From Limonium bicolor (taxonomy: Eukaryota; Streptophyta; Magnoliopsida; Caryophyllales; Plumbaginaceae): a stretch of DNA of 64,000 nucleotides. The stretch is from assembly GCA_023374045.1 (NCBI GenBank), contig CM041777.1, positions 486,367,594 to 486,431,593 of the forward strand. The letters run 5' to 3'. Under the pieces are notes generated by a model. It saw only the letters and a list, made by a program, of their open reading frames with translations. It was not told where the DNA came from and ran no database searches. Shown piece by piece: positions 10,545 to 56,322 of this stretch (positions within the stretch are counted from its first letter, which is position 1; each line of letters begins with the position of its first letter). Made by a program: the position numbers and the translations under genes.

Positions 10545-10549
10545 AAAAG

Positions 10550-10575
10550 TGGTATCAGAGCGAAGTATCGCTCTG
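10550..10575 (+). promoter_or_regulatory. LARD primer-binding site with overlapping hairpin
   Basis: TGGTATCAGAGC at 10550-10561, six bases after the LTR end, is the standard site complementary to initiator tRNA-Met. Its last bases form the left arm of a perfect stem CAGAGCGA / TCGCTCTG with loop AGTA (10556-10575). Confidence 0.85.
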
Positions 10576-16264: not shown

Positions 16265-16280
16265 CTTAAGGGGGGTAGAT
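16265..16280 (+). promoter_or_regulatory. LARD polypurine tract
   Basis: CTTAAGGGGGGTAGAT lies immediately before the 3' LTR start TGAAATAC (16281). It primes plus-strand DNA synthesis. The element at 33185-56317 has nearly the same sequence at 52483-52496. Confidence 0.8.
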
Positions 16281-33179: not shown

Positions 33180-33184
33180 AGAAA
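33180..33184. repeat. Left target duplication of Tekay-type element
   Basis: AGAAA directly before TGAAATACCCC; matches 56318-56322. Confidence 0.9.
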
Positions 33185-35040: not shown

Positions 35041-35439
35041 GCCGGACCGACCTTGGGACCGGACTTGCAAGGTCGGTCGAGACAAGATTTATAAAGGACG
35101 GAAACCTTCTGGAATGGACCGACCTTGGGACCGGACAAGCAAGATCGGTCGGCCAGAAGAATATCCCGTAATTTAACCTACTGGAATGGACCGACCTTAC
35201 GAACCGGACTTGCAAGGTCGGTCGACTCAAAATTTTCCCGTCATGTAACTTACTGGAATGGAGACCTTGCGACCGGACTTGCAAGGTCGGTCGGGCTAAA
35301 TTTCTCGGTCAGGTAACTCACTGGAATGGACCGACCTTGGGACCGGACTTGCAAGGTCTGTCGGCCCTGAAATTTTCCAGTGTTTCCCTACTGACTTCGA
35401 CCGACCTTGGACCGACCTGGGGAAGGTCGGTTCGAGTCA
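35041..35439 (+). repeat. Hairpin array in Tekay-type 5' LTR
   Basis: Six units with arms GACCGACCTT / AAGGTCGGTC and a CCGGAC-containing loop, homologous to the LARD array. Unit 4 has lost CCGACC in its left arm and unit 2 has a mismatch (AAGATCGGTC). Confidence 0.9.
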
Positions 35440-35477
35440 CAAAAAAAAAACAATTACAAGTATATATTATATAGATA

Positions 35478-35482
<5 letters not shown>

Positions 35483-35526
<44 letters not shown>
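35483..35526. repeat. (AT)n microsatellite
   Basis: An uninterrupted AT run of about 44 bases. The 3' LTR has only a short version near 54740-54755, so it expanded in the 5' copy or contracted in the other. Confidence 0.9.
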
Positions 35527-35529
<3 letters not shown>

Positions 35530-36996
35530 CACATATATAAGTATACCATTACTAAGTAAGTAAATGAACTTGAAGTAAGTAATAAAGAGTAAGTAAACAA
35601 TGTGTAAGTATAAGAATTGTAGGGACTTAGTACGTATGAGTTAGGAAACATAAAAAGGTATACGAGTTAAGTTAATTGTAGATAATTAACACTCGATCAC
35701 ATGTATATTATAGGACTTGATTTGTGAACACCGGAGGAAAGTCGGATACAAGGACACGGTGAACGGTATGAATACTCATGCCCGTATGCTACCTTGGTTA
35801 CTCTGATTTGTGTGTTGTGTGCTAATTGATCACCAAATAAGATTAAATGCACGAATCGGAGTTATCATGTTTACTTGTGAATATGTAGTGGTATTGTGAA
35901 GGTATCTTAAATCATAGTTGTATAATTCATGAAAATGTATGGATGAATATGAGTGTGGTGTATGTATGATATATGGTATTGTGCCCGAATGTGTTTGTGA
36001 TTGGACTTCTAACTGATTCCTAACAAGCTAACCAATCTGACTTATAAATTGGTAATTAAATTGGAATGAGTAGAAGTCCGATATAGTTTCGGCCTCGCGT
36101 GAGGATGCGGAGACACAAGAGGTTGGATCCAAGTCCTGACTCTTAAGCTGGTCCACGGCCCAAACCCCTTAAATGGGTAGCCTCCCGGATTGGTGAGTCA
36201 AGTAAATCCCGGTGGTGGGACGGTGTAGTCCCCGGGCCGGAGGTCACACCGACTTAACATGAGTAAAAGTAAGTAAGTAAGAATGAGTAATAAGTATGGA
36301 AAAGTAAGTAAGTGTAAGTAAGAGTAAGTAAAGTGTAATGAGTAAAAGAGTAAGAAGCATTCCGATTAACCCGGATGCGTAATTTGGCTAACCCTTGTGA
36401 AGGTAAGGATTGTGTATGCTATTGTATTGTTGCCTTGGATTATGTATTGTGTTGAGCATGATCGTATGATGTATGAAAAGCATGTATGTGTGCAATTAAT
36501 GAACCGCATGTACAGCCGACCTTAAATAGTCAGTGCGCCCTTGGTAGCACTCGGTATATGCGGAGTTCATGCGAAGCTTTTGCTGAGCCCCTTGGGGCAC
36601 CGTTTTTAATATGAATGCAGGTACATGAGAAGGGTGAAGATGACGAAGAGTTTAGTTTGATTTCTTTTTGTCTGTAAACAATGTTGTGGAAGTTGTACTA
36701 TGTTGTACACGGCTGTAGGTTTGTTAGCCGGGTACCATAGGGTACACCCTTTGGATAATGAAAGCATGGGATTGGTATAGACGGGTAGCTTGTACAAATC
36801 ATTATTTTTGGGAGATTGGAAAAGGGATGTAATTAACTATGCATTAAATACTCGGGTAATCCAGGAATGCAAGATGTTTCTTTTGTAATCGGTATGTAAT
36901 GTAGTAGCTCGGTATACTTAGGCATCATACCGTCACTGTAAGTAGTAATAGCCTTGCTAGCCGTTATGGGCGGTTAGCGGCTTTGTACCACCCGCC

Positions 36997-38770
36997 TGTA
37001 TACCCAAAATTTTGACCCCCTGGTTAAGGTCTACGAGGTTGTGAGAGCCATCTCCATCAAACAGTAAGAGACTCCGGCCCGATCGGCGTGTTCCAGGGCC
37101 TGAGGAGCAGTTTCGTCATTGTCAGGGGCGTTTTCGTAATTTTTAAGGCTTCTGAGTTCTCCTATAGGCTTTCTCTCTCCTCCAAAGGGTGCCCAAATCA
37201 GCTCGAAATGCTTTGATATTTTAACCCATGATAGAGGATGACATTTTAAGCATAATGGCGTTGGAATTTTGATTTTTCGAATTTCCAATAATTTTCTAGC
37301 AATTTCTGACTGAATCTGACGAGAAATTCAATTTAAAAATGCTCCAGCATTTAAAAAATTCGTTTCCACCTCAGAAAATTCATAATATCCATTCTTGACA
37401 TGTGGTTAAAATTTCATAGCAAAATTCCTTTGGGAAGTTACTTAGTTAAAATATCGAAAAATCTTACTTTTACTAGATTTCTTTATCTTTAAGAAAGTCT
37501 ATATAAAGGGATAGGTTTTTGGATAAAATCAGAACCTCACATACTCAAGAACCCTAGAGAGTCAGAAAAGGCAGCTTCCTCTCTCTCTCTCACGTTTTCC
37601 AACACCCGGCCACCCAAATCATACCGAAAATCCCCCGAAACCACTATCTAAACACGTTTTCCGATCCCCAAAGCACAAATAATCATCAAAACCCCACAAA
37701 AACACCACCAAAACGTGAAGAACAGCAAGAACAACCAACAACCAGAAGCTTGGTTCGAAGTCCTTTCGGGTCTACCATCAACGGAGCACTCGACGAATCC
37801 CGGTGTGAAGAAACGTTGTGAATCCGAAGGTAAAACAGGTAGAAACTCAGCTTCCCTAATTCTCCACGGTATTATCTGTCTTGCCTCGAAATTTGAGCTC
37901 AAACTAACCTTCGTGGGCTTCTGTATTGCTGTTTGTTTAAGCCTCTGTCAGATAACTTGTTTGCTAAGTTTCGTGCTTAATTCGAATTCAAATTGAAAAC
38001 TTTCAATCACTAACGTCTTGTACATCTTTCAGGCTACACACCCATAAAATTTGAGCTCAAAACACCCTCGGGAACCTTCTGAAAACCCCTGTCCGTGGGT
38101 GGTCCGTGACCTCGGACCTATGGTCCGGGACCTCGGACGCGTTGTCCGAGACCACGGACACCCACGGACGGCGGCGGGATTTTAAAAATTCAAAATTTAG
38201 GTTTTTCTAATGATGTCCGGGCCCACGGACAGCCTGTCCGTGGCCCCGGACTTTGCAAATTTTTGTTTTCCTTTAATTTCGACTTTTCTGTGTATTTAGG
38301 TTAACTGGGGTCCGTGGTTTCGGACATTAGGTCCGTGGCTACGGACGGAAATGAAATTTGACCTAATTCTGCCTCCGAAACCCTAGTTTAGGTAGCTTTC
38401 AATTTCACTTTTTTTCTGTCAAAAAATGCTAAAAACACAAAAAAACAGAAGCGCGCACTTAGGTTAAAAACGACTTTGTAGTAAGCCGTAAATAAACTGA
38501 GTAGAGGAAAAACGACCTAGGAAGGGTAATGAAAGTAATTGAACCCTAATAAAGTCGTATATCAAGCCCCCGAACCCGAACTCTCCTTTCCTAATTTGAT
38601 CTAGGTTAAAATTAGGTGGCGACTCATAATAGGTCCAGTGAGCTAGCTTAGGTTTTAATAATTGTTGTTTATGACATAGTTATTAATCTTAGGTTATAAG
38701 TGGACCTAAAACCCGATTAGATCCTAATCAGCTTTAAAACATAGGATAGGGTTTAAAATCGAGGCTCACA
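36997..38770 (+). repeat. TR-GAG 5' LTR
   Basis: 1774 bases. A TATA box TCTATATAAAGG lies at about 37498-37509. A GTCCG/CGGAC-rich segment at 38091-38350 includes a large imperfect inverted repeat. One T is missing from the terminal TGTTATACCC relative to the 3' copy. Confidence 0.92.
38091..38169 (+). repeat. Large imperfect inverted repeat in TR-GAG LTR
   Basis: The left arm 38091-38117 and right arm 38144-38169 pair over about 26 bases with few mismatches. Both arms are built of GTCCGTGG / CCACGGAC and CCTCGGAC / GTCCGAG blocks. The loop holds a further GGTCCGGGACC palindrome. The 3' LTR copy (about 45180-45255) is eroded by indels in the left arm. Confidence 0.85.
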
Positions 38771-38773
38771 GAC

Positions 38774-38792
38774 TGGCGACTCTGCTGGGGAC
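38774..38792 (+). promoter_or_regulatory. TR-GAG primer-binding site
   Basis: TGGCGACTCTGCTGGGGAC, three bases after the LTR. It is not the tRNA-Met type seen in the neighbours. Sites of this kind occur in Tat/Ogre-like Gypsy elements and are usually assigned to tRNA-Arg; I did not check the tRNA. Confidence 0.75.
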
Positions 38793-39638
38793 TTACTTCT
38801 TAATTTTAACTTGTTTAATTTTAAGAAAGAGGGCTTAACTCAAAATGTTTATTTATGGCTTTTACTATTTTGTTTACTTCTGTGCGCACTTTAATTTTTG
38901 CACCCTTGCATCATATGAGAGCGAGGGTCCACGCAAACCAATTCCACCGGGACCCGTTTGAGGGTCCCCTGTCAGGGACTCACACCTTTTAGGTGATGTG
39001 AATAAGTAGGGGAAAAGAGGAGGGTGTCGTCTAACCACACCCCCTTAATACCTGGGCTTTAGCCCCAAGCATTTTCCTGGCAGTACCCTTACCAAGCCCA
39101 TTGTTTGGTCAGTCAAAGACCCGACCGTAGACGCACACCTTTAGGTGATGTGAAAAAGTGGGGTGGCCCAAAGAGAATAGCGTGCAAGCCCTATTCCTTT
39201 GTGGTGACCTGGGCCCGCGCCCCAAGCACCTCTCCGGATCGACCTATACCTGTTGGACTGAGTCATCTTGTGAGGGCATTTGCATCACCGCCTTACGTAA
39301 GACTTCTGAGTATGTGTTCTCTTTCACCTGGGCCTCAGGCCCAATGTCTGCATCGACCCATCAATCTCCCCAGCCCGATTAAAATGCTTGAATGTTTCAA
39401 ACGGCCCAAATAGTCCGAAGAAGCAAAAGAGTCCCGTAATTAGAACACAAGGGCCCTCATAGGAAAACCTTTCCACGTCACTAAAAGCCCGTGCCCTAAT
39501 ATTTCTTTTTATGTTCCAAAACAGAAAGAAGGCAAGATTTCAGAAAGGCGCTGGGACAGAAGTTCCGGACGTTTGACCCGACTGCCTACTCCCCCACCTC
39601 CGTTATTTCAACCCGAGGCAGACTCTAGCTCATCTGAC
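38793..39638 (+). other. TR-GAG leader
   Basis: Untranslated region before gag. No long frame belongs to a known domain. A short direct repeat carrying GACCCGACCGTAGACGCACACCTTTAGGTGATGTG-like text occurs near 38980 and 39120, and GGGCC-rich phrases recur. Confidence 0.4.
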
Positions 39639-41176
39639 ATGTCGGTCCAAGCACATGACGATATCTCTCAGGAGGATCAGCCAGCGGGGGGAGAAAACCA
39701 GAACACTTCTGTTGAAGAACTCATGAAAAACTTTGATTTGAAACACCAGGAAGCGATCCAGGCGCTCGAGAATAAGTATGTGGACACAATCGCCAAGCTA
39801 GAAGATAAGTTGGCTGCATTGGAAACGGCAGCCCAAAGCAGGGCCACTGAGGGTCCGACAGGGAGCAGGATCAAATAGCCAGCCTGGTACGGAAACATCA
39901 AGCCGCCATTGAAGCCTTGGAGGCACGGCATACGGCAGCAACAGTTGAGCTCCATGAGAAAATAGGATCTTTGGAGGCGGCAAGACAGGAAAGACCGCTA
40001 CAAGGATTTGTCAATCCTTTATACGGCATGGACAATATCTCCTTAGAAGGACATGACACCCAAGTTGGATACGGTGGTGGTGCTCCTGGGAACCAGCTAG
40101 CCACCGAAGTTCAGAGGGCTTTGAGGCGCATTGAGCGCATGGAAAAGGCCGGTAAACCCGCTGGATTTGATTATCTTTCCATGGGATCCTATCCAGATGT
40201 CGAGCTACCCGCGAAACTGAAGCTCCCTACTTTGGCTCTCTACAAAGGCTCAACCGATCCCCAAATTCATTTGGCGATGTTTGATCGAGAGATGTCTATC
40301 CTGAGGCTCAATGATATGCAGAAGGCCAAGGTCTTCGCCCGATACCTAGATGAGATCCCTCAACGATGGTATCTAACTCAGAGGATGAACACCAAGACCT
40401 ATGAGGAGATATGCGAAGCTTTCCTGACTCACTTTGAGTATGCTAAAAATCTGGAAATCACCCGATCCGACCTTGCTAGCACACGCCAAACGGGAAGTGA
40501 GTCCATGTCCGATTTTATAAAGCGGTGGAGGAGGAAGGCAGCAGGCATGCCTACAAGGATGGATGAGCAGGAACAAATCCGCATGATTGTTGAGAACATG
40601 CAAAAGCAGTACAATGATGAATTAAAGTATATGTACTTTCCAAGCTTTGATATGCTCATGGGCCAGGTGGGGGTTTTGGAGGAGAAAATCCACAAGGGAG
40701 ACCTAAAGCTTGGATACCCCCGAGGATCCGGGGGAAATTCGAAGTTCCCAAAATCTGAAACAGCAAAGGCTTCCTACTCAAGCACAGCTTATGCACAGAG
40801 CGCACCGCAGAGATACGCGGGACAGTACGAAGTAAATGCGGTCCAGCAGCCAAGGGAACAGGGGAGGAATTATCGAGCAGTACCACCCCCAAGACAGGAT
40901 TTCAGTCAACGAGAATTCACAGATATTGGTCGGCCATTGAGTCATGCTCTGAAAAAACTCCAGGAGCAGAACATCTTACAGCCTCTTCCGCCCCGACCAG
41001 GAGTCACCTGTTTGGGCAGGAACCCAAATCAGTTCTGTCTCTACCATCAGTTGCCAGGTCACGACACCGATCATTGCAGGGCCCTACAGCATAAGATCCA
41101 AGACCTGATTGACCAGGGGCTTCAGTTCTCAGAGCGCGGAAACATCTTCGGGAATCCTATGCCAAAACACCATTAA
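39639..41176 (+). pseudogene. TR-GAG gag, one frameshift
   Basis: About 510 codons. The N-terminal part (from ATG 39639 to about 39860) is a coiled coil of Glu/Lys/Leu heptads. A frameshift near 39860 leads to the frame ending at 41176. That frame has the Gypsy retrotransposon gag core (LPTLALYKGSTDPQIHLAMF...RYLDEIPQRWYLTQ...SMSDFIKRWRRKA) and ends with a zinc-finger-like CLYHQLPGHDTDHC, CX2HX4HX4C. A His in place of the second Cys is common in Tat/Ogre gags. The product would form the capsid and package RNA. The frame from 39917 is open for 419 codons, so capsid function could still be under selection or the copy is young. Confidence 0.85.
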
Positions 41177-42768
41177 GGATCACTATTGTTTTTCTTCTCC
41201 CTTTTGTTGTTTTGCGTAGCATTTGTTTTGTCTTTTCTTTTAGTTCTTTAGCTAGTTTAGTTGTTTCTCCCTTTTAGATGGTACTCATTGTCGTTGTTAC
41301 TCCTTTTGATTATCAATAAAATTTCTTCCTTGATTCGTGTTCTAATGAGTATACTTCCGTTCATATGAAGAAAAAAAAAAAAGAAAAAAACACACAAAAT
41401 ATAAATCACTCAGCAATCACCCCATCACTACTCACCACCATTGTTTACCACCACACGTGCAGTCACCCTCCACAAATAACTTGGGCATTCTAAGGTTTGT
41501 CAAGTAAACCCCACAACATACTGGGGGCAATCTGAGTTAAGGAACGGTAACGTTTATTTCTTTTGTTTAAATGCGCAAACAAGTCTCTGAGTGTACACTT
41601 CGTGAGAGTGCCTTGAGCGGTAAAACCAAGCGAACGGCGTGTCATTTTTACACGGCTCCAGAGAGGTCACGTACAAAGGTAAGGCAAACGGCATGACTCC
41701 GATCGAAGGAGATAATTTGTAAATTTACGCTTAAACCTGTGAAAAGTAACAAAGAACGGATACACAACTATTAGGGATGACGAAGCACCTAGGTACAGCA
41801 CCACACAGCCAAAAGCCTATAACCCAGCATTAAACCTAGGCACCCCCGCTGAGCTTTTCATATATGACCTCTTTTACAACACTACGAACTCCACAAAATA
41901 AGCCAGCCAGTGATGAATAACCAATCCGGTGACCAAAGGAAGCAAGGAGCCCGACTTCTTGAACAACAACTTCACAAGTCCAAAGAAGCAAAACCGCTAC
42001 CAGCATGACAAAGCGATCCGCAAATGGTCCCAAAGTGACACAGGATCCAAATGAGCCAACATCAAAAAGCTCTCAAAGTTCAAAACCGGGAAACACAAGA
42101 ACCCCGAGAGGAAAGAAATCCAAAGAAAGGCAAACCTGAAAAGCCTTGAAGAAACCCAAAATTGGAAGAAGGAGAAAGGATGCAAGGAACAATTCAAAAA
42201 TCCAGAGTTCCAAGCGAAGTCATCACGAAGTAGCCAGAACGACTTCAGGACAAAGAAAGCAAGTCCGAGAGAAGGTGCAAGTTGCAGCTTTGGTCACCCT
42301 TATAGCTCCACATATCCTAAACATTCCTCCATCGTCCCATTGTCTTTCATTACACCCCATAGCCATGTTATAAGCTCAAAAGACTTCCGACTTAGTAGTT
42401 GTGTATCCAATCACGTGAAAGTAACAGGTTGAACGCGTAAATCGAACAAATGTCAAATTCAATGGTTGAGATGTCTTGACCCAAAAGGAGAGTACGAGCG
42501 CAAGCATCAAATACTTTGAGTGTAGATAGAAAGCACCACATCAAGATAAACCCTGACCTTGTGAGAGTGAGACTTGTTTTGTGCAGTTAATCAAAGAAAA
42601 TACTAGGGGCAATCGATCGTTCCGATCGAATGCCATAAAATCCTAAAAAACTCGGATTGCCTTAAGGAAAAATACTGGGGGCAATTGTTGGTCCCAACAA
42701 TTGCAACAAAGACACCGATTGAGTCCCAAAAATCCAAAACCCAAAGGGTCAAACCCTCTTCATATCAC
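41177..42768 (+). other. TR-GAG non-coding region after gag
   Basis: About 1.6 kb where pol would be expected. Translations show no protease, RT or integrase motif. An A-rich tract lies at 41370-41400. AATAAA (about 41315) could be a poly(A) signal for gag RNA. Confidence 0.6.
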
Positions 42769-43010
42769 ACAGGCCCGTCTTGAGCCCTACCTCCACATCA
42801 AATTTCCTCAGGCCCGTCCTAAGCCCTACCTCCACATCAAATTTCCTCAGGCCCGTCCTAAGCCTACCTTCCACCAAACATCCAGGCCCGTCCTAAGCCC
42901 TACCTTCACACTCAAACATCCGCAGGCCCGTCCTAAGCCCTACCTTCACACTCAAACACCCGCAGGCCCGCCTTGAGCCTTACCTTCACACTCAGGCCCA
43001 TCTTGAGCCC
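42769..43010 (+). repeat. Tandem repeat R1 in TR-GAG 3' region
   Basis: About seven units of 30-37 bases with the core AGGCCCGTCCTAAGCCCTAC. Units differ by small indels and by CTTGAG for CCTAAG. Confidence 0.9.
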
Positions 43011-43095
43011 TACCTTCTCTAGTTCGACATAAACCCTAATCCTTCTACATCCTTTTGGACCCACCATACACTCGGCTCACTTTCACTTAGATCCA

Positions 43096-43395
43096 ACCTT
43101 TAGGCTCGTCATAAGACCTAGTTGCATTCCTTAGGCTCGTCATAAGACCTAGTTGCATTCCTTAGGCTCGTCATAAGACCTAGTTGCATTCCTTAGGCTC
43201 GTCTTAAGATCTAGATCCCACTTTAGGCTCGTCATAAGACCTAAACTACCCTTAGGCTCGTCATAAGGCCTAGTTGCATTCCCCTAGGCTCGTAGTAGAA
43301 TAGCATTACCTTTTAGCTTACCCACTCTCATCAAACACATTGCATTCATCTCATTCATATAGGCTCGTCATAAGACCTAGTTGCATTATCCGGGC
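43096..43395 (+). repeat. Tandem repeat R2 in TR-GAG 3' region
   Basis: About eight units of about 31 bases with the core TTAGGCTCGTCATAAGACCT followed by AGTTGCATTCC. The core of R2 (GGCTCGTCATAAGACC) resembles that of R1 (GGCCCGTCCTAAGCCC), so R2 and R1 probably share an origin. Confidence 0.9.
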
Positions 43396-43616
43396 CGTCA
43401 CAAGACCTGGCGACAGAAAGTTGGCGAGGTGATGGCAATAAATCCTCCTTTTGCAATGTCAACTTATTTTTGGGATCAACGAATGGTGGGCAAAGGCAAT
43501 AAGTCCCCAGGGTTTTTACCAGGAGTTATCCCTGCACACCGGCTTGGGGGGCGATGGCAATAAGTCCACATTGGGTCCAGCCAGGAGCATTAGCACGGGT
43601 TTCGGTCCCCCTGAAG

Positions 43617-43684
43617 CATCCGAGCATCATCAGCATCATCAACACCATCGGCATTATCATCAGCATCAGCATCATTTTGCATCA
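43617..43684 (+). repeat. CAT/CAG trinucleotide microsatellite
   Basis: Imperfect CATCAG/CATCAT runs between R2 and R3. Confidence 0.85.
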
Positions 43685-43727
43685 TTAGCATTTCAGCATT
43701 CTTGCATTTGCATCCAGTTTTCACATT

Positions 43728-43985
43728 CTAGGTAGTCAACGCCTTAGAATAGCTTGACATCATTATTACCTTAGGTAGTCAGCGCCTTAGAATAGCTCGA
43801 CAGCATATCATCATTTTAGGTAGTCAACGCCTTAGAATAGCTTGACATCGTATCATCCTTATAGGTAGTCGCACCTTAGAATAGTCTGACATTACCTCAT
43901 TATTACCTTTAGTAGTCAGCGCCTGAGAAAAGCTCGACAATGCTTTTAGCTTAGGTAGTCAGCGCCTCCGAATTGCTGGGCATCG
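43728..43985 (+). repeat. Tandem repeat R3 in TR-GAG 3' region
   Basis: About six units of 43-48 bases with the core AGGTAGTCAACGCCTTAGAA followed by TAGCTTGACATC. The last units are more diverged. R3 ends about 120 bases before the 3' LTR. Confidence 0.9.
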
Positions 43986-44101
43986 TTAACCCGGTTTCAC
44001 ACAACGTGGAGGATTCTGTGGAGTCCAAAATTTTGGGGCACCACTCAAGCATCAACCAGACTTTTCACATTCGTTTCAAATCCAGTTGACGGGGGGCAAT
44101 C

Positions 44102-45851
44102 TGTTATACCCAAAATTTTGACCCCCTGGTTAAGGTCTACGAGGTTGTGAGAGCCATCTCCATCAAACAGTAAGAGACTCCGGCCCGATCGGCGTGTTCC
44201 AGGGCCTGAGGAGCAGTTTCGTCATTGTCAGGGGCGTTTCGTAATTTTAAGGCTTCTGAGTTCCCTATAGGCGTTCTCTCTCCTCCAAAGGGTGCCCAAA
44301 TCAGCTCGAAATGCTTTGATATTTTAACCCATGATAGAGGATGACATTTTAAGCATAATGGCATTGGAATTTTGATTTTTCGAATTTCCAATAATTTTCT
44401 AGCAATTTCTGACTGAATCTGACGAGAAATTCAATTTAAAAATGCTCCAGCATTTAAAAAATTCGTTTCCACCTCAAAAAATTCATAATATCCATTCTTG
44501 ACATGTGGTTAAAATTTCATAGCAAAATTCCTTTGGGAAGTTACTTAGTTTAAATATCGAAAAATCTTACTTTTACTAATTTTCTTTATCTTTAAGAAAG
44601 TCTATAAAGGGATAGGTTTTTGGATAAAATCAGAACCTCACATACTCAAGAACCCTAGTGAGTCAGAAAAGGCAGCTTCCTCTCTCTCTCAGTTTTCCAC
44701 ACCCGGCCACCCAATCATACCGAAAATCCCCGAAACCACTATCTAAACACGTTTTCCGATCCCCAAGCACAAATAATCATCAAAACCCCACAAAAACACC
44801 ACCAAAACTGAAGAACTGAAGAACAACCAACAACCAGAAGCTTGGTTCGAAGTCCTTTCGGGTCTACCATCAACGGAGCACTCGACGAATCCCGGTGTGA
44901 AGAAACGTTGTGAATCTGAAGGTAAAAACAGGTAGAACTCGCTACCCTAATTCTCCACGGTATTATCTGTCTTGCCTCGAAATTTGAGCTCAAACTAAAC
45001 CTTCGTGGGCTTCTGTATTGCTGTTTGTTTAAGCCTCTGTCAGATAACTGTTTGCTAAGTTTCGTGCTTAATTCGAATTCAAATTGAAAACTTTCAATCA
45101 CTAACGTCTTGTACATCTTCAGGCCTACCACCCATAAAATTTGAGCTCAAAACACCCTCGGGAACCTTCTGAAAACCCCTGTCCGTGGTCCTGACCTGAC
45201 CTATGGTCCGGACCTCGGACTCGTTGTCCCGAGACCACGGACACCCACGGACGGCGGCGGGATTTTAAAAATTCAAAATTTAGGTGTTTAATGATGTTCC
45301 GGCCACGGACAGCCTGTCCGTGGCCCCGGACTTTGCAAATTTTTGTTTTCTCTTTAATTTCGACTTTTCTGTGTATTTAGGTTAACTGGGGTCCGTGGTT
45401 TCGGACATTAGGTCCGTGGCTACGGACGGAAATGAAATTTGACCTAATTCTGCCTCCGAAACCCTAGTTTAGGTAGCTTTCAATTTCACTTTGTTTTCTG
45501 TCAAAAATGCTAAAAACACAAAAAACAACAGCGCGCACTTAGGTTAAAAACGACTTTATAAGCCGTAATAAACTGAGTAGAGGAAAAACGACCTAGGAAG
45601 GGTAATGAAGTAATTGAACCCTAATAAAGTCGTATATCAAGCCCCCGAACCCGAACCTACTCTCCCTTTCCTAATTTGATCTAGGTTAAAATTAGGTGGC
45701 GACTCATAATAGGTCCCAGTGAGCTAGCTTAGGTTTTAATAATTGTTGTTTTATGACATAGTTATTAATCTTAGGTTATAAGTGGACCTAACCCGATTAG
45801 ATCCTAACAGCTTTAATCAACATAGGATAGGGTTTAAAATCGAGGCTCACA
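44102..45851 (+). repeat. TR-GAG 3' LTR
   Basis: 1750 bases, TGTTATACCC...GGCTCACA. It is very close to 36997-38770; most differences are one-base indels in homopolymers. Confidence 0.92.
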
Positions 45852-45947
45852 CACCGCCCGTAGTAGTAGTAGTATTTCCGCTGCGACGTAGTAGGATTAT
45901 CAGGACGATTAGACGGTAAGCATAGGATTAACGGTAGGGGTGTTACA
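45852..45947 (+). repeat. Tekay-type 5' LTR, right part
   Basis: Continues the LTR interrupted at 36996 and ends GGGGTGTTACA. It matches 56222-56317. Confidence 0.88.
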
Positions 45948-45952
45948 AAAAG

Positions 45953-45978
45953 TGGCATCAGAGCGTAGTTACGCTCTG
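45953..45978 (+). promoter_or_regulatory. Tekay-type primer-binding site with overlapping hairpin
   Basis: TGGCATCAGAGC (45953-45964) is the tRNA-Met site with one substitution. It overlaps a perfect 9-bp stem CAGAGCGTA / TACGCTCTG with loop GT (45959-45978). The LARD has the same 20-base structure with a compensating base-pair change. Confidence 0.8.
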
Positions 45979-46853
45979 ATGTCCATAGTTACCGAGCATA
46001 GGGATTACCGAGTTAGGATTTCAACCGTCTTAAGACGGATACTTAGAAACCTAACTAGGATTTACCGTTGATAATAACGGATACCCTTGACGTTCTTGCG
46101 AACGATACCTTGCTGAAATTTGACACCATTGGTCACTTACCACCTGTCACAATGTCATATGTTACAAGCCTAATGCAAATGTTAAATATTCAGATGTCAG
46201 GAAGAGATCCAGGTCACCGAGGGGCCAATGACGGACCGGGCGCGCAGACGATAGCTGAGATCGTCGCCGCCACGGTAGCGTAGATGCTACCGCAAGTAAT
46301 CACTGCAATGCAACAAAACCAGCAGAATCAACAAACTCAAACGGGACCAACCCCTCCCCCTTCACCCAGAGAAGTAAACTGGGTAAAAGCTATCGCAGAT
46401 CTCCGACCTCCATGCTTTAGAGGTGAGAGCGATCCTACTAAACTTGAAGCTTACATCTCCGAAATGGAGACTGCGTTTGAGACTCTCGAATGTCCTGCTG
46501 GAGTTCGAGTGAGACTAGCCGCCTACTACCTCAAGGATGCAGCCATGGATTGGTGGAAACTAATCAAGCACGACCATACTGATGACCCCACCTTTGACTG
46601 GGTGGCTTTCATAGCCCTTCTCCGATCCAAATACTATCCCGAACACGTCAAAACCAGAAAAAGACTTGAGCTGGGTGCTTTGAAAATGACAGAGAAGATG
46701 TTTGTCAATGAGTACTACCGCACCTTCACCTCTCTTCTCCGTCTACTACCCGACCTTGGGTACACCGGCCAGGTGTTGGTCGATCGCTTCTATGGCGGTC
46801 TGAGCCATCGCCTTCGGTACGGTATGGGCTATACCAGGTTTACCTCCCTTCAG

Positions 46854-46955
46854 GTAAATATCGGTTAAACCCTAGTACCATTGTAACTCCTTAAATTCTT
46901 CATTTTTACCTCCATATCTTTAAATAAGAATCCCGGCTAATACCTGAAACTTCAG
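46854..46955 (+). other. gag intron 1
   Basis: 102 bases, CAG|GTAAAT...CTTCAG|GAG, phase 0. It contains stops; removing it joins FTSLQ to ECYHAA, a natural continuation of the gag domain. Confidence 0.75.
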
Positions 46956-47235
46956 GAGTGTTATCACGCGGCTTCTCGCGTTGAGATCACTTGCCAGCTA
47001 AGGGATGAAGAAACCGCGCTGAAGCGCAAAGCTAACAACAAAAACACCAGTTCTGAGGAGCAGAACCAAGGATAGAGTTGGAAGAAGAAGAAGGGAAGGT
47101 TCTTCAATCAAACTCAAAAGAACTTCCCAAGTGAGAGCAGTGCCCATGCTGAGAAGGGCAACCCGGTTGAGATTCTTCAGCTAGGTTCATCTGCACCGGT
47201 GGATGCGAAGCCACTGAGATCACACCCACCCAAGG

Positions 47236-47353
47236 GTAAACTTCTATTCCTAATTCGTATTCGTACAAGTATCATATCTAGTATATCCACGCACAAATGT
47301 GCTTAGCCTCTAAACCTTAGGTTTTGGCTCCGGTTTCACCAAGAACTTCTCAG
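47236..47353 (+). other. gag intron 2
   Basis: 118 bases, AAGG|GTAAAC...TTCTCAG|AT, phase 1. Joining makes codon GAT and connects the basic linker to the zinc knuckles in one frame. Confidence 0.72.
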
Positions 47354-47665
47354 ATGGCCGCATATATGTGTGCCGGAAGTGCAATCAAGACCATCCCGGC
47401 AAGGATTGCCAAGGGAGAGAAATCCGGTGCTACAACTATCAGAAGCCCGGACACCGAGCCAACATGTGCCCCGAAAATGCTAAACCTAGAGGGAACTTCC
47501 AAAGCTATAAGCAAAGGAAAGGCAAGGAGGTTGCATCTGGCGATGCACCGACCCAGCAGGCACCACAGGGACAGGGATCCCGGGGTCCTCAGAGGGGCGC
47601 ACCCCAGAGGCAGCCTGTCTTGCATGTGATTGACCGTGACGGGTCCGGTTCTAAGTCCGGCCCAG

Positions 47666-47819
47666 GTAATTAATCTAAACCTTGAATCATGTGAAGCATG
47701 TCTAAGTAATGAAGTAACTGTTTGAGTGAATGCATGAGCAAATGAATTGGAGTGTGTAATGAGCATGAAAAGAAGTAGTTAAAACTAGTACTCACCGTAG
47801 ATGAAATTTACAACCTTAG
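47666..47819 (+). other. gag intron 3, short form leading to AlkB
   Basis: 154 bases, CCCAG|GTAATT...CAACCTTAG|GA, phase 1. It joins the end of gag to the AlkB frame without a stop. The nearer CCGTAG (47800) would give the wrong frame. The long form, 47666-48699, ends TTCAATAG|GA and joins gag to pol in frame, skipping AlkB. Confidence 0.6.
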
Positions 47820-48559
47820 GAAGCTTTAGTATCTGTTATCCGATACCTTCGAAACCGAATCAAGAAGAGACCGACATCACCAAACACTACTACACCAACG
47901 AGCAGTGTCAGGTCATCCGACCAGGTATGATTTTATTGAGGGGATACCTGACACCTGAAGCACAAATCTCAATCATTCGACGATGCATCGAGCTAGAAAC
48001 GGGTCCAGGAGGATTTTATACACCCAAATTCCCCGGTGGAGCGAAGATGAAGCTGAAGATGATGTGCTTGGGAAAGGATTGGAATCCTTATACCAAGACA
48101 TACCAAGAGACACGAACACAAGACAGAGTGATGCCACCGACAATACCTCCAGAATTCCAGACACTTGTCACACAAGCAGTAGAACTTGCACAACAATGTG
48201 AATATGATCCGATCCCCGCACTTGAAGCGGACCTTTGTATCGTCAACTTCTATGAGAAAGAAGGACGACTTGGGTTACTCAAAGACAAGGACGAGACAGC
48301 GGAATCTCTTGAACAAGGAGTTCCTGTAGTGTCTTGGTCCATTGGTGATGACGCCGTGTTTATGTATAGCGAGCAGAAGCGTGTGGACCTCGCACAGAAA
48401 TTGGTATTGAGATCAGGAGATGTCCTAATCATGGGTGGAAACTCTAGGATGCTGTATCACGGGATCAACAAGATCAAGTTGAATATGGCACCACCGGCAA
48501 TAATTAATGCCACACACATGAAACCAGGACGCCTGAACCTTACCTTTAGGAAGTATTAA
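47820..48559 (+). CDS. AlkB-like 2OG-Fe(II) dioxygenase exon captured by the retrotransposon
   Basis: An uninterrupted frame of about 245 codons; it also has its own ATG at 47801. The order is that of plant ALKBH1-like proteins: an N-terminal lid region (RPGMILLRGYLTPEAQ), GPGGFYTPKF, KLKMMCLGKDWNPYTKTY, then the jelly-roll with CIVNFYEKEGRLGL, PVVSWSIGDDAVFMY, LRSGDVLIMGGNSRMLYHGI, and RPGRLNLTFRKY-like KPGRLNLTFRKY at the C-terminus. Known role of the fold: oxidative removal of methyl groups from nucleic acids using Fe(II) and 2-oxoglutarate. Residues counted from 47801: the HxD motif reads L160-K161-D162, so the first iron ligand is Leu. The distal His (H220) and 2OG-binding Arg (R244, R250) are kept. 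Catalysis is therefore doubtful in this copy; nucleic-acid binding is possible. It ends in TAA, followed by an AATAAA. Confidence 0.9.
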
Positions 48560-48628
48560 ATTCGTAGTACCATGTAATGTATTAGTAACGTGTATTAGAG
48601 ACACGGTATGTATGATGGTTGGTTTATC

Positions 48629-48634
48629 AATAAA
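48629..48634 (+). terminator. Possible poly(A) signal after the AlkB exon
   Basis: AATAAA, 70 bases after the AlkB stop and 65 before the pol splice acceptor. It could end a short Gag-AlkB transcript, or be a remnant of the captured gene's 3' UTR. Confidence 0.45.
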
Positions 48635-48699
48635 GAGCAGTGTTAATTTAATTCCACTTGTGTCCACCATCATTACTTAACCACTTATGAATTCAATAG

Positions 48700-51600
48700 G
48701 ATGTGGACTCGGTACCGAAGGTAACCTGAGTATCCTCACCGAAGCACAAGCCGGTAAGAGTGGCACCATCTTAACGGGAACATTCCCAGTGAACGGCATT
48801 AAAGCCTCAGTGTTATTTGACTCCGGTGCCTCTCACACCTTCGTATCACCATCTTTTGTGAAGAGGTTGAAGCTAGATGCGGATGAGCTACCGAATTTTC
48901 TGGTTACTCTCCCATCGAAGGAGCGAGTACAGTGTACCAAATACTATAAGGCAGCCACGATCCAAATCAAAGGTGAAGCGTTTCCCATCTCCTTCATCGA
49001 GTTTAATGGATTGGGATTTGACTTGATAATCGGAATGAATTGGTTGGAGCGGCACAAGGGTAGAATCCTCTGCGCCGAGCACCGTTTGCTGCTCAAGAGT
49101 CCTTCTGGGGTTACAGTATCTTACCGCCAGAGACCGAGAGAGCCTTCAACCACAGTCATCTCCGCTATGGCCATGCACCGGGAGCTCAAAAAGGGCAAAG
49201 AAGTGTATTTGTGCTATGTACAAGACCTGGAGAGAGATCCAGAGTTTAACCCTGAAGTACCCATTGTATCCGAATTTCCCGATGTATTCCCTAAGGAGTT
49301 ACCTGGCATGCCACCTCAGAGAGCGGTAGAATTTGAAATTGACCTCTTGGCAGGTACCGGTCCTATCGCTAGGGCACCATACCGTATGACACCTGCTGAA
49401 ATGACAGAATTGAAGGAGCAATTGCGAGACCTTCTCGACAAAGGGTTCATACGCCCGAGCGTATCACCTTGGGGAGCACCGGTCCTCTTTGTGAAGAAGA
49501 AGGACGGTAGTCTCCGACTTTGTATTGACTACCGCGAGTTGAATGCGGTTACAGTCAAGAATAAATACCCATTGCCACGCATCGACGACCTATTCGACCA
49601 GCTGAAAGGAGCCTCAGTCTTCTCCAAGATCGACCTCCGTTCTGGGTATCATCAGATTGCTATCAAAGAGCAAGACATAGAGAAAACGGCATTCCGTACC
49701 AGATATGGCCACTACGAATTCACCGTCATGCCATTCGGTTTGTCAAACGCACCAGCAAAATTCATGGACCTCATGAATCGACTATTCGGTGAGCAGTTGG
49801 ACACTTCGGTTGTTGTCTTCATCGACAACATCCTTGTATACTCAAAATCAGCAGAGGAACGTGAAATTCATTTGAGGAAGTGCTTGAGACATTGCGCGAA
49901 ACCATTTGTATGCGAAGTATCTCCAAATGCGAGTTCTGGCGATCAGGTATCATTCCTTGGTCATCATCTCGAGCGTAGCTATCTCAGCTGTCCCTTCTAA
50001 ATTGAAGCTGTAATCATGGCCTAGACCCAAGAATGTTACCGACATTAGGAGCTTTCTTGGTCTAGCCGTTTCCTACCGAGATTTGTAAGGACTTCTCAAA
50101 AGTCGCCAAGCCCATGACTACAACTAATGAAGAAAGATGCACCGTTTGTATGGACAGACGAGTGCGAAGTATCATTTCAGAGCCTAAAAGACTCATTGAC
50201 CTCAGCGCCCATCCTTACCTTCCAGAGGGCACAGAGGATTTGAGGTATATTGTGATGCATCAGGCAAGGAATAGGATGCGTACTCATGCAGCATGGCCAA
50301 GGTTGTGCTTATGCCTCCCACCCGCTGAAAAAGCATGAGGAGAATTACCCGCACAAGCTACTTAAGTTATGAGCCATTGTCTTCGCCTTGAAGATATGCG
50401 ACACTATCTCTAGGGGTAAGCATCACCACTACTCCGACCATAAGACTTAAAGTATGTATTCACACAGACAAGAATTGAATTTGAGACAGAGATGGATGGA
50501 GTTTCTTTCAGATTACGACATCAATCTACAGTATAAGAAGGGAAGGAAAATGTGGTAGCCGACCCCCTGAGCCGTCGAGCATACTCGCTCCATTCACTAC
50601 TCGCTTCTTCTAGCTATTGACGGTACGAGACGCTCATTGAGCGACCCTTACCTAACCGAAATCAGACAGAAGATCACAGATGGTACATTTGAGAAGAAGA
50701 AATATGATTTTAAGTTGCTGAAGATGGTCTGATCGGCTTAATGCAGCTATGCGTCCCCCGAATCACGTGGGATGCAATCCCGCGAGAGTCACACAGTTCG
50801 ACATTGTCAGTCCATCCAGGAGCCTCCAAGATGTACAAAGACATGAAGGTACTTCTGGTGGTCTGGAATGAGGTCAGATGTGATAGAGTCATATTGAGAT
50901 CTTAACATGCCAGAAAGTGAAGTTTGAACATCGTAGACCGGGGGAATGGTACATCGATGCCATTCCGGAGTGGAAATTTCATGATATCCATGGATTTTGT
51001 TGTAGGACTCCCACCTGCCAGGGGAGGACTCAACATGATCTGGGTTGTAGTCGATCGCCTCACCAAGATGGATAGATTCATACCGATGAAGGACACCTGG
51101 AAGGTAGTGAAGCTCGTAGAGCTATTCGACAAGGAGATTATCAGAAACCACGGAGTCCCAAAGACCATAGTATCTGACTGTGACACCAGATTTCTTTCGA
51201 GATACTAGAGAGCTACACGGGAAGCGTTGGGTACAGAATTGAAGCTGAGTACCGCCTTCCATCCTCAGACCGACGGTCAGACAGAAAGGACCATCCAGAC
51301 ACTGGAGGACATGCTTAGAGCATGTGCCTTAGACTTTCAGGGGAGTTGGTTAGACAAGCTTCATCTTATCGAATTTCCATATAATAATAGTTATCATGCC
51401 TCGATTAAGATGTCGCCTTTCCAAGCTCTATACGGTAGACCTTGCCGTACACCCTTGTGTTGGGATGAGTCAAGTGAAGCGGTCATCATAGGACCGGAGT
51501 ACCTTGAACAAGTGCAAGCTGAATTTCAGCAGATTCGAGTGAATATGAAGGCAGCCGAAGATAGACAGAAATCCTATGCGGATGTGCGACGACGCGACCT

Positions 51601-52042
51601 TGAGTTCACCGTGGGCGACCAAGTGTTCTTGCCCGTTTCACCTATGAAGGGTGTTTTCCGATTTGGCCAGAAGGGCAAGCTGAGCCCAAAGTTTGTAGGG
51701 CCGTATGCTATCACCGAAAGAGTTGGAGTTGTAGCCTACAGGTTATCATTACCTGAGGACTTGGGACGTGTCCATGATGTATTTCATGTGTCACAACTCA
51801 AGAAGTATATTGCTGATCCTTCTCATGTCCTAGAGCCCGAGAGACTATCCATTAAGCCGACCATAAGATATGTTAAAACCCCAGTGAGAATCCTGGATAG
51901 GAAGACCAGAGACACTCGCCATAAGTCTATACGAATGGTGAAGGTCCTATGGTCAAACCATGATGTCGAAGAAGCGACATGGGAGTTGGAAGATGCCATG
52001 AAGGCGAAGTACCCACAGTTATTCATAGACGAGATAGTCTAG
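48700..52042 (+). pseudogene. Chromovirus pol: protease, RT, RNase H, integrase, chromodomain
   Basis: The first frame (from 48687, exon from 48700 if spliced) has the protease motif DSGASHTF (Asp codon 48819) and RT with [44 protein letters not shown] and the catalytic block FIDNILVYS. The second Asp of FIDD is Asn (49827-49829), which should abolish polymerisation. The frame shifts near 49905. RNase H (50000-50580) survives only in pieces. Integrase core resumes at 50924-52042 with WISMDFVVGL, VSDCDTRF and HPQTDGQTERT (D, D and E), and one TAG at 51207. The C-terminus (VRILDRKTRDTRHKSIRMVKVLWSN...ATWELEDAM) is a chromodomain, which guides insertion to heterochromatin in this group. Confidence 0.93.
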
Positions 52043-52496: not shown

Positions 52497-55400
52497 TGAA
52501 GTACCCCGTAATTTAAAATAGTGATTAATTAGTCTAATAAGTAATTTAGAAGCTTAATTATGCATAAATAATCATGAGGGAACAAATCCCGAAGGAAACG
52601 GATCCTTAAAACGGATTAAAAACACTAATGAACCTTAAAGCACGTTTTTCGAGGAAACCGGAAAAACGTGACTTTAAGCGGGTCAAATAGACTCGTCAAT
52701 TTTGGTCAACTAAATAGTCATTAATAATTATTAGTGAAGCTTTAGAACCAATAAAATCAATAAAACAAGAAATTAGTAAAAACTGTCAAAAACGGGAAGT
52801 TGTGGGGTAAAAGCACAAATAACTAGAACTAGTGTGTCCACTATTAAAATAAAGTGTAGAGTTGGTTTGTGTTGGCTATGTCAGCCGATGGCCTTCCCCT
52901 CTCTCACACACTCTATTAATTCTTCTTATGTACAAAAGAACAAAACAATTAAAAGTCAAAAAGCAAACTTACTTTACCTCACCACTCCTCTCTTATCCTC
53001 TCATTCTCTTCACTCACGTACACCCCTTCTCCCTCACTCTCTATTCTCTTCTTCTTCCTCAACCGGACAGCAATGGTGAAAGGAGAAACCCACACTAAAA
53101 CTCCACTTCTCTCCTCTTGTTAACCCCTTGAACCTCCATCAAAAATTACAAAAATTATACCATTGAAAACAAGAACTTTCATCTCATGGGTGTGTAGCAT
53201 TTGGAGCTTCAAGACTACCATTAGAACCAACTCCTTCTCCTTATTATTTGAGGTAAAAATATTCTTAAAAATTCGCCTTTTTCTAGCCCTTGTGGGCAAA
53301 ACAAAATTTGAAACTAAACCCTTGTTGTTCCTTTACTCTAGCCAATTTTGGCTTCTTTGGAGGTGAGAAATCTTGCTCTTGAGCTATTCTAAGCCTCATC
53401 TACATCCTTGCAAGGTAATGAAATTTCTAAACCCTAAAACTAACCTTAAACTTAAAGATGGTTAGGGTTAGTTATTGGTTTTAAAATGGTGTGTATATGT
53501 GGGCTTTAGTGTTAGAGAAATTAATCTACAAAACCGGTGGGAAGGAAAAAAGGAAGAAGGAAAGAAGAAGGACAAAGAAAAGTGAAGCTAGTTAAGAGAC
53601 GAGGTAAAATACATTCTTTTGTGTGGTTTAGTAATGTACTATGTAACAGATTTTAGTAGTGAAAATGAGTATTGAATATGGTATTGAGTAGTAGTGTAAT
53701 ATGTAAGAGAATCCTAATGTTTTAAACCTTTAAAGGACATGTGAAAGCTTGTTGAAACCTAGATGGGTATTAATGTTTGAGTGCAGGAATTTAATGTTGT
53801 TTAGTGTGGTATTTGTGTATGAGAGTTGGTTATATTGATATTGGTTATAAACAGGTGGTATGGATCATATATGTGAGTGAAACAATGTGTTGAGAGTGTA
53901 AAAATATAGGGGAGGTTATGTCAAAATTTACCTAGGACTAGAACACTTAAGAGACTAGGAACTAGGTAAAAATATACCCTTGTAACAGATTTTGATTTGG
54001 TTTAGTTAGTGGGTAAGTATGGAGAGATGTCTAATGCATTAGAAGTTTTAGAAATGACATTAGAAGAGGAGCTATAGATGGAGAGAGCTAGAGTCAAAAT
54101 CTGTAGCAAATGCAACTAAGGAAGATTTAGTGTAAGTGCTGAAATGGAACTTAGGAAAAATGAGTGTGTAAATTAGTGTAGATATGAGTAATGGGTTAAT
54201 GGATGAACTAAGGAGTATTAGGGAGCTTAATTAGTGTTAGAACATATGGGAATAAGTGTAGGAACAATAGGTAAGTAATGGGTAAGAAGAGGGACTGAAA
54301 ATAGAAATAAAAATGCAAATACTGGGCCGGACCGACCTTGGGACCGGACTTGCAAGGTCGGTCGAGCCCAGATTTATAAAGGACGGAAACCTTCTGGAAT
54401 GGACCGACCTTGGAACCGGACATGCAAGGTCGGTCGTCCAGAAGAATTTCCCGTAATGTAACCTACTGGAATGGACCGACCTTGCGACCGGACTTGCAAG
54501 GTCGTCGACTCAAAATTTTCCCGTCATGTAACTTACTGGAATGGACCGACCTTGCGACCGGACTTGCAAGGTCGGTCGGGCTAAAAATTCTCCGTCAGGT
54601 AACTCACTGGAATGGACCGACCTTGGGACCGGACTTGCAAGGTCGGTCGGCCCTGAAATTTTCCAGTGTATTTCCCTACTGACTTCGACCGACCTTGGGT
54701 AAGGTCGGTCGAGTCACAAAAAAATAATAATTACAATACATATATATATATATGCACATATATAAGTATACCATTACTAAGTAAGTAAATGAACTTGAAG
54801 TAATAAAGAGTAAGTAAACTATGTGTAAGTATAAGAATTGTAGGGACTTAGTAAGTATGAGTTAGGAAACATAAAAAGTATACGAGTTAAGTTAATTGTA
54901 GATAATTAACCACTCGATCACATGTATATTATAGGACTTGATTTGTGAACACCGGAGGAAAGTCGGATACAAGTACAACGGTGAATGGTATGAATTACTC
55001 ATGCCCCATATGCTACCATGGTTACTCTGATTTGTGTGTTGTGTGCTAATTGATCACCAAATAAGATAAATGCACAAATCGGAGTTATCATGTTTACTTG
55101 TGAATATGTAGTGTTGTATATTGTTGTAGGTTATCTTAAATCATAGTTTGTATAATTCATGAAATGTATGGATGAATATGAGTGTGTGTATGTATGATAT
55201 ATGGTACTGTGACCGAATGTGTTTGTGATTGGACTTCTAACTGATTCCTAACAAGCTAACCAATCTGACTTATAAATTGGTAATTAAATTGGAATGAGTA
55301 GAAGTCCGATATAGTTTCGGCCATGCGTGAGGATGCGGAGACACAAGAGGTTGGATCCAAGTCCTGACTCTTAAGCTGGTCCGCGCCCCAAACCCCTTAA

Positions 55401-56317
55401 ATGGGTAGCATCCCGGATTGGTGAGTCAAGTAAATCCCGGTGGTGGGACGGTGTAGTCCCCGGGCCGGAGGTCACACCGACTTAACATGAGTAAAAGTAA
55501 GTAAGTAAGAATAGAGTAATAAGTATGGAAAAGTAAGTAAGTGTAAGTAAGAGTAAGTAATGTGTAATGAGTAAAAGAGTAAGAAGCATTCCGATTAACC
55601 GGATGCGTAATTTGGCTAACCCTTGTGAAGTAAGGATTGTGTATGCTATTGTATTGTTGCCTTGGATTATGTATTGTGTTGAGCATGATCGTATGATGTA
55701 TGAAAAGCATGTATGTGTGCAATTAATGAACCGCATGTATAGTCGACCTTAAATAGTCGGCGTGCCCTTGTTAGCACTCAGTATATGTGGAGTTCATACG
55801 CAACTTTTGCTGAGCCCCTTGGGGCACCGTTTTTAATATGAATGCAGGTACACGAGAAGGGTGAAGATGATGAAGAGTTTAGTTTGATTTCTTTTTGTCT
55901 GTAAACAATGAGTTGTGGAAGGTGTACTATGTTGTACACGGCTGTAGGTTTTGTTAGCCGGTGTACCATAGGGTACACCCTTTTGGATAATGAAAGCATT
56001 GGGATTGGTATAGACGGGTAGCTTGTAGAAACTCATTATTTTCGGGAGATTGGAAAAGGGATGTAATTAACTATGCATTAAATACTCGGTAATCCAGGAA
56101 TGCAAGTATGTTATCTTTTGTAATGAGTATGTAATGTAGTAGCTCGGTATACTTAGGCATCAGACCGTCACTGTAAGAAGTAAAAGCCTTGCTAGCCGTA
56201 TGGGCGGTTAGCGGCGTTGTACCACCGCCGTAGTAGTATTAGTATTTCCGCTGCGACATAGTAGGATTATCAGGACGATTAGACGGTAAGCATAGGATTA
56301 ACGGTAGGGGTGTTACA
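52497..56317 (+). repeat. Tekay-type 3' LTR (3.82 kb, uninterrupted)
   Basis: Full copy of the LTR at 33185-36996 plus 45852-45947. It preserves the empty target of the TR-GAG insertion near 56222. Hairpin array at 54326-54715. Confidence 0.93.
54326..54715 (+). repeat. Hairpin array in Tekay-type 3' LTR
   Basis: Six GACCGACCTT / AAGGTCGGTC units. Unit 3 has lost one G-G step in its right arm (GGTCGTCG). The last unit is shorter and lacks the CCGGAC loop. Confidence 0.9.
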
Positions 56318-56322
56318 AGAAA
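56318..56322. repeat. Right target duplication of Tekay-type element
   Basis: AGAAA, identical to 33180-33184. Confidence 0.9.

Follow-up and report, generated by a model that had tools for sequence, protein, structure and literature searches.

An ALKBH1-like dioxygenase in a Ty3/gypsy retrotransposon family of Limonium bicolor, predicted to be an alternative terminal exon of gag

Introduction

A plant retrotransposon with an AlkB-type dioxygenase of its own has been described from orchids. The Tat/Ogre element Gypsy_Pa_2799 of Phalaenopsis carries an ALKBH5-like ORF2, for which the accessible part of the study reports m6A RNA demethylase activity in vitro; the element has a length of 25 kb, its gag-pol forms one ORF and its AlkB a separate ORF of 565 aa (PMC9289625). 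In the same accessible text, a screen of 121 genomes recovered the AlkB domain in Phalaenopsis only, and AlkB domains are named in plant RNA viruses of the Alphaflexiviridae, Betaflexiviridae, and Closteroviridae (PMC9289625). Plant LTR elements are said to be generally intronless, with Ogre and EVADE as exceptions, and m6A can hold the RNA of the LTR element ONSEN in stress granules, from which ALKBH9B releases it (PMC12786077, accessible part). In EVD, a Ty1/copia element, premature polyadenylation was found to be coupled to splicing (PMC8892269, accessible part).

Here, we describe an AlkB-bearing Ty3/gypsy family from Limonium bicolor. Like Gypsy_Pa_2799, it is present in high copy number and has captured an AlkB-type 2OG dioxygenase with conserved HxD...H / R residues. 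In comparison with the orchid element, it displays a chromodomain-like integrase end, three gag introns, and an exon of the ALKBH1 type between gag and protease; this contrast takes the Tat/Ogre lineage of the orchid element as reported rather than from a joint tree. An initial annotation of the locus, made from the letters alone, had named no precedent for a chromovirus encoding an AlkB. This agrees with the open-access literature, in which we found no such chromovirus and the orchid elements as the sole AlkB-bearing retrotransposons, but an AlkB in a Gypsy element as such was already known from the latter.

Structure of the AlkB-bearing element

The window, a stretch of 64,000 nucleotides, contains a full-length Ty3/gypsy element at 33185-56317, and the AlkB exon sits inside it. 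As had been annotated, the element is bordered by matching target-site duplications AGAAA at 33180-33184 and 56318-56322. A nested LTR element divides its 5' LTR into a left part (33185-36995, + strand), which is 93.7-95.3% identical to the 3' LTR by piece, and a right end (45852-45947, +) with the last letters TGTTACA; the 3' LTR occupies 52497-56317 (+). The nested element, at about 36996-45851, has LTRs of its own (36996-38770 and 44101-45851) with a length of about 1.75 kb and a K2P of 0.028. Since the two LTRs of the AlkB element differ by a K2P of 0.02-0.04 by piece, its insertion is, judged by this divergence, not among the youngest.

All internal features lie on the + strand. The primer-binding site, which we take to be of the initiator-tRNA-Met type, is found at 45953-45964 and reads TGGCATCAGAGC in the window and TGGTATCAGAGC in other copies. 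It is followed by gag exon 1 with the capsid domain (46194-46853, PF03732; the start was placed with the help of copies from subfamily S2, see below), intron 1 (46854-46955, GT-AG, AT 0.67), gag exon 2 (46956-47235), intron 2 (47236-47320, GT-AG, AT 0.65), and gag exon 3 with the CCHC zinc knuckles (47321-47665), whose 3' border is the shared donor. Intron 3a (47666-47819, phase 1, AT 0.67) leads from this donor to the acceptor of the AlkB exon (47820-48559), and intron 3b (48560-48699, AT 0.67) from the AlkB stop to the pol acceptor. The latter includes, at 48629-48634, an AATAAA that is the predicted poly(A) signal of a Gag-AlkB mRNA. Pol, with protease, RT, RNase H region, integrase, and a putative chromodomain, extends over 48700-52042. 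Signs of decay are evident in this copy, namely an in-frame stop immediately upstream of 46284 in gag exon 1, an internal stop in gag exon 2, and several broken frames in pol.

Upstream of the AlkB, the gag match of the window reached an E-value of 1.5e-14 with PF03732, and the CCHC stretch gave a weak score below the cut-off (E 0.0045); downstream, PR+RT and SH3/chromo matches were obtained with Pfam. This domain order confirms the annotated position of the AlkB, in sense orientation between the zinc knuckles of gag and the protease. The gag-PR-RT-INT order, the LTRs, the primer-binding site, and the target duplication are all present and give the element a chromovirus-type layout. At the C-terminus of the integrase, the chromodomain PF00385 was matched with E 8.7e-05 in the window and about 2e-04 in two other copies, and the 21.5-22.8 bits lie below the Pfam cut-off of 25.1 in all three. 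Of the annotation as a chromovirus, the Ty3/gypsy assignment and the layout stand, and the chromodomain is a candidate with E-values that are significant.

Over most of its length, the PR-RT region shows 57-59% identity to its nearest continuous matches among those listed, which stem from Cuscuta europaea and one ENA contig; Tanacetum models outscore the others only via repeated RT pieces with an identity of at most about 69%. None of the 120 pol relatives listed, candidates being limited to at most 1.75 times the query length, revealed an AlkB match.

Other elements were noted in the window. A second large LTR element at 6365-20632 (LTRs of about 4.1-4.2 kb, K2P 0.036) contained no gag-pol match and no gag-pol-like frame of at least 120 aa, and it looks like a non-autonomous relative of the AlkB element, with whose LTR it shares 93% identity over 500 bases of its own LTR. 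Tandem repeats of about 72 bases within the LTRs (54313-54697, about 8300-8720, and about 35035-35431) are common to the autonomous and the non-autonomous element. At 61061-63842, there is another Ty3/gypsy element with a pol 48% identical to that of the AlkB element; the matches to gag and to protease are separated by only about 500 bases there, and none to AlkB was seen.

The AlkB exon and its domain

The frame at 47801-48559 (+) encodes an AlkB-type 2OG-Fe(II) dioxygenase, which in the window copy covers 194 of the 194 profile positions of PF13532 (Pfam, E 3.5e-41); the AlkB of copy L023 reached E 1.2e-49. The predicted exon starts at 47820, coinciding with the start annotated at the outset, and has a length of 740 nt, as in eight of the nine copies compared. 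By sequence, the nearest solved protein to the AlkB of copy L002 is OsALKBH1 (5xeg, E 5.9e-71), and an AF2 model of the window AlkB (pLDDT 88.6) also had OsALKBH1 (5xoi) as its first pdb match, with TM 0.83/0.91 and E 1.7e-27. The proposal that the frame holds nearly the whole ALKBH1-like fold is thus borne out.

Fold and active site are common to OsALKBH1, plant ALKBH1, and the element AlkB, but many host plant ALKBH1 proteins have a long N-terminal part that is absent from the element protein. Many of the AlkB relatives bear the database name DNA N(6)-methyladenine demethylase. With the bacterial AlkB equivalogs NF011930 and TIGR00568 of NCBIfam (cut-offs of 267 and 231 bits), the AlkB of the window (103 and 86 bits) and that of L002 (112 and 91 bits) both scored below either cut-off.

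Copies, subfamilies, and selection

The AlkB-bearing family occupies at least 150 places in the 2.92 Gb genome. All 150 scored AlkB protein matches showed an identity of at least 90%, and 120 of them were stop-free, a count that is biased, as are dN/dS values within subfamilies, by the selection of all copies through AlkB similarity. Loose, unscored candidates from a first look (53,153 with the AlkB protein as query, 38,325 with the Pfam family) show only that the family is very large. On contig C1, four AlkB copies lie about 10.1 kb apart between 497439466 and 497470353, as in a tandem array with common LTRs.

Twenty copies with wide flanks were drawn from the Pfam match list. The order zinc knuckle-AlkB-PR/RT-INT was kept in every one of them, and gag exon 1 was present in 19 (not in L032). 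The one-off insertion that the initial annotation had weighed, with other family members lacking the AlkB, is contradicted by its position, which is the same in 20/20. Searched by exact pattern, an LTR start after the polypurine tract was recovered in 18, the primer-binding site in 17, and an LTR end before the primer-binding site in 16 of these 20 copies. The initial annotation had suggested looking for copies with other target duplications, and one was found, namely the S1 copy L017 with TTAGC, unlike the AGAAA of the window. It is one of two among ten S1 copies for which both LTR ends were found; in the other, L002, the duplication did not match, its supposed 5' end being that of a different 3' LTR, as shown by the polypurine tract in front of it. 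Of the other eight S1 copies, seven showed one LTR end only and L010 none, and for the S2 copy L023, no LTR end was found in L061/L062.

Forty copies fall into three subfamilies, S1 (window-like, 20 copies), S2 (16), and S3 (4). S2 and S3 share about 70% AlkB protein identity with S1, and at the nucleotide level, the AlkB exon is 69-71% identical among the subfamilies (two copies per subfamily). The AlkB is under purifying selection. Pairwise comparison gave a median dN/dS of 0.143 for S1-S2 (320 pairs) and of 0.116 for S2-S3 (64 pairs, partly saturated), S1-S3 being saturated; these values between subfamilies are less affected by the AlkB-based choice of copies than those within S1 (0.05-0.46) and S2 (0.03-0.96). 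Differences between S1 and S2 per codon position were 0.21/0.15/0.46. Between S2 copies and the window, pN/pS was 0.27 for AlkB, 0.34 for gag, 0.155 for PR-RT, and 0.13 for INT, and within S1, it was 0.24 for AlkB, 0.15 for gag, and 0.16 for PR-RT. By these values, the AlkB is constrained to a degree between gag and pol among the subfamilies and less than gag and PR-RT within S1.

Splice structure and a predicted Gag-AlkB protein

The exon borders are conserved. The introns of the window have an AT content of 0.65-0.67 vs. 0.43-0.54 in the exons. The donor of intron 1 was present in the 14 copies examined, from all three subfamilies, and its acceptor was visible in S1 and most S2 copies, the S3 sequence examined ending before it; for intron 2, GT and AG were seen in the seven copies examined, again from all three subfamilies. 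The third gag donor faces two candidate acceptors of equal phase, that of the AlkB exon at 47819/47820 and that of pol at 48699/48700. Its GT is kept in 38 of the 38 donors located in the 40 copies (L003 differs at the base preceding the GT), and AG is found at the AlkB acceptor in 40/40 copies and at the pol acceptor in 39 of the 39 located (of 40). An AATAAA stands behind the AlkB in 36 of the 40 copies (S1 19/20, S2 16/16, and S3 1/4), given here as a raw count without a chance baseline.

We predict a Gag-AlkB protein made through an alternative terminal exon because no upstream start codon is available outside S1: in none of the 20 S2 and S3 copies does an in-frame ATG precede the AlkB acceptor, and the first internal Met comes 26-76 codons into the exon. 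The database proteins P0002 and P0003 start at the same internal Met, as expected for an exon that has no start codon of its own. The donor behind the zinc knuckles would be joined to the AlkB acceptor in an mRNA ending at the AATAAA, which would give Gag-AlkB; the same donor, skipping the AlkB and using the pol acceptor, would give Gag-Pol, and unspliced RNA would serve as the genome copy. Gag-AlkB may be carried in the particle beside the RNA and cDNA of the element, and the packaged AlkB would strip methyl marks from the element RNA or the new cDNA, candidate substrates being m6A or m1A in RNA or 6mA in DNA. To the reading as a whole, that of a conserved ALKBH1-like family gene which is a predicted alternative terminal gag exon and whose Gag-AlkB product would erase methyl marks on element RNA or cDNA, we assign a probability of roughly 0.7; the splicing, the catalytic activity, the substrate, and the packaging of Gag-AlkB are parts of it that we infer from sequence. 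A padded search admitting longer gene models gave 352 matches, and among the 120 that were listed, no protein combined a gag with an AlkB domain.

An unlikely alternative is an AlkB that is translated by itself, with a start codon of its own and from RNA that is either unspliced or separately initiated, and that acts in trans as in the orchid, whose ORF2 is reported in the accessible text to be expressed independently of Gag-Pol (PMC9289625). In 16 of the 20 S1 copies, the window included, an in-frame ATG does lie six codons before the acceptor, but its absence from S2 and S3 disfavours a free-standing ORF, and conservation between the subfamilies starts at the acceptor rather than at the ATG of S1. 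The initial annotation is upheld in regarding the AlkB as a gene of the element; we favour an alternatively spliced last exon of gag over a free ORF.

Conserved splice sites and an internal AATAAA at the gag/pol border are the sequence feature known from EVD, where alternative splicing near this border and an internal poly(A) site lead to a short gag mRNA. The short mRNA of EVD, a Ty1/copia element, yields Gag only according to the accessible text, whereas in the Ty3/gypsy element described here, a predicted dioxygenase would be added to Gag (PMC8892269).

Active site

Catalytic residues are intact in most copies. Over the 40 copies, the first His, the Asp, the second His, and the first Arg of the iron/2OG site are each present in 39, and the second Arg, the Asn, and the Tyr of the AlkB active site in all 40. 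S2 and S3 copies keep every Fe/2OG residue, with His at the first ligand in 20/20, and S1 copies have this His in 19/20. The window copy carries Leu in place of the first iron-ligand His of the HxD motif, and one further active-site residue is missing in each of L002, L004, and L010. Judged by the conserved residues, the family apparently encodes an intact enzyme, and single losses scattered over four S1 copies are as expected from decaying copies. The window copy itself, having lost an iron ligand, is most likely unable to catalyse, and with frames disrupted in both gag and pol besides the change from His to Leu, it is probably dead.

The Leu of the window copy could also point to an AlkB retained as a non-catalytic, nucleic-acid-binding extension of Gag, and according to the accessible text, an H-to-A mutant of the orchid protein still binds RNA (PMC9289625). 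We consider this improbable, given that each Fe/2OG residue is kept in 39 or 40 of the 40 copies, with no exception in S2 and S3, and that the losses are single ones spread over different S1 copies; an AlkB inactive by design, as the Leu taken by itself might suggest, is ruled out by the His of nearly all S1 and all S2 and S3 copies.

Origin of the AlkB

Gag exon 3 and the AlkB lie on the same strand and in order, and the AlkB might in principle be reached from this exon by read-through or frameshifting, with no splicing involved. This seems highly improbable: a stop precedes the acceptor by 0-17 codons in the AlkB frame in 40/40 copies, and the AT-rich spacer at 47666-47819 can hardly be aligned from one subfamily to another (identity of introns 3a/3b 0.37-0.43 vs. 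0.27-0.36 for shuffled sequences, two copies per subfamily). A one-off insertion of a host gene or processed pseudogene, hitch-hiking without function, would suit the listed relatives with names, which apart from P0001-P0004 are host plant proteins, several of them called ALKBH1, but it is already contradicted by the copy number, the same position in all 20 wide-flank copies, the second target duplication TTAGC beside AGAAA, and the purifying selection on three subfamilies.

A tree, one of the checks proposed at the outset, was built from 12 copies (of the 40) and 76 database proteins (of the 120 listed). In this unrooted tree of 88 rows, the element copies together with P0001-P0004 form one side (SH-aLRT 100, branch length 1.38), split from 72 other database proteins, plant where named. 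P0001-P0004 are AlkB proteins from ENA/Logan contigs with 60-71% identity to the element AlkB, and because they group with the latter, other genomes probably hold the element family too. The simplest reading would be a single capture, common to these other sources. P0122-P0126 (Smallanthus, Artemisia, Rhamnella, and Aegilops) were rejected as relatives of the element, as their high scores come from two AlkB stretches with about 39-50% identity in one protein; one of these proteins also has an RRM domain, and they represent either host genes in tandem or gene models that were fused. In viral contigs, 303 pattern stretches were found and none was confirmed.

Discussion

The element-encoded nature of the AlkB, as proposed in the initial annotation, is backed by the number of copies, the constant position of the exon, its conserved active site, the purifying selection on it, and the presence of three diverged subfamilies. 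The capture looks independent of that in the orchid, to judge from the other lineage, the other AlkB subfamily, and the other layout. With plant RNA viruses, the family shares a parasite-encoded AlkB thought to target the parasite's own RNA, but those are RNA viruses and there is no Gag fusion. Their AlkB domain is embedded in the replicase.

In its most specific form, our proposal is that a chromovirus gag with one donor gives rise to two proteins, Gag-Pol and Gag-AlkB, and that an ALKBH1-type eraser is thereby brought into the particle. No earlier retroelement demethylase would have been targeted to particles, and the capture would be separate from that in the orchid; we see even odds for this version. 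If the prediction is true, the AlkB element is a Ty3/gypsy case of regulated splicing. The predicted fusion to Gag also sharpens the question of whether the eraser is packaged and of what is erased, and the very many copies with their natural active-site variants form a natural experiment in gene retention.

The apparent capture of two AlkB subfamilies by two Gypsy lineages suggests repeated selection on retrotransposons for erasing methyl marks. This agrees with the ALKBH9B-dependent mobility of ONSEN, as described in the accessible part of that work (PMC12786077). If our reading is true, an epitranscriptomic (or cDNA 6mA) eraser encoded by the element itself reaches exactly the nucleic acid that the element replicates.
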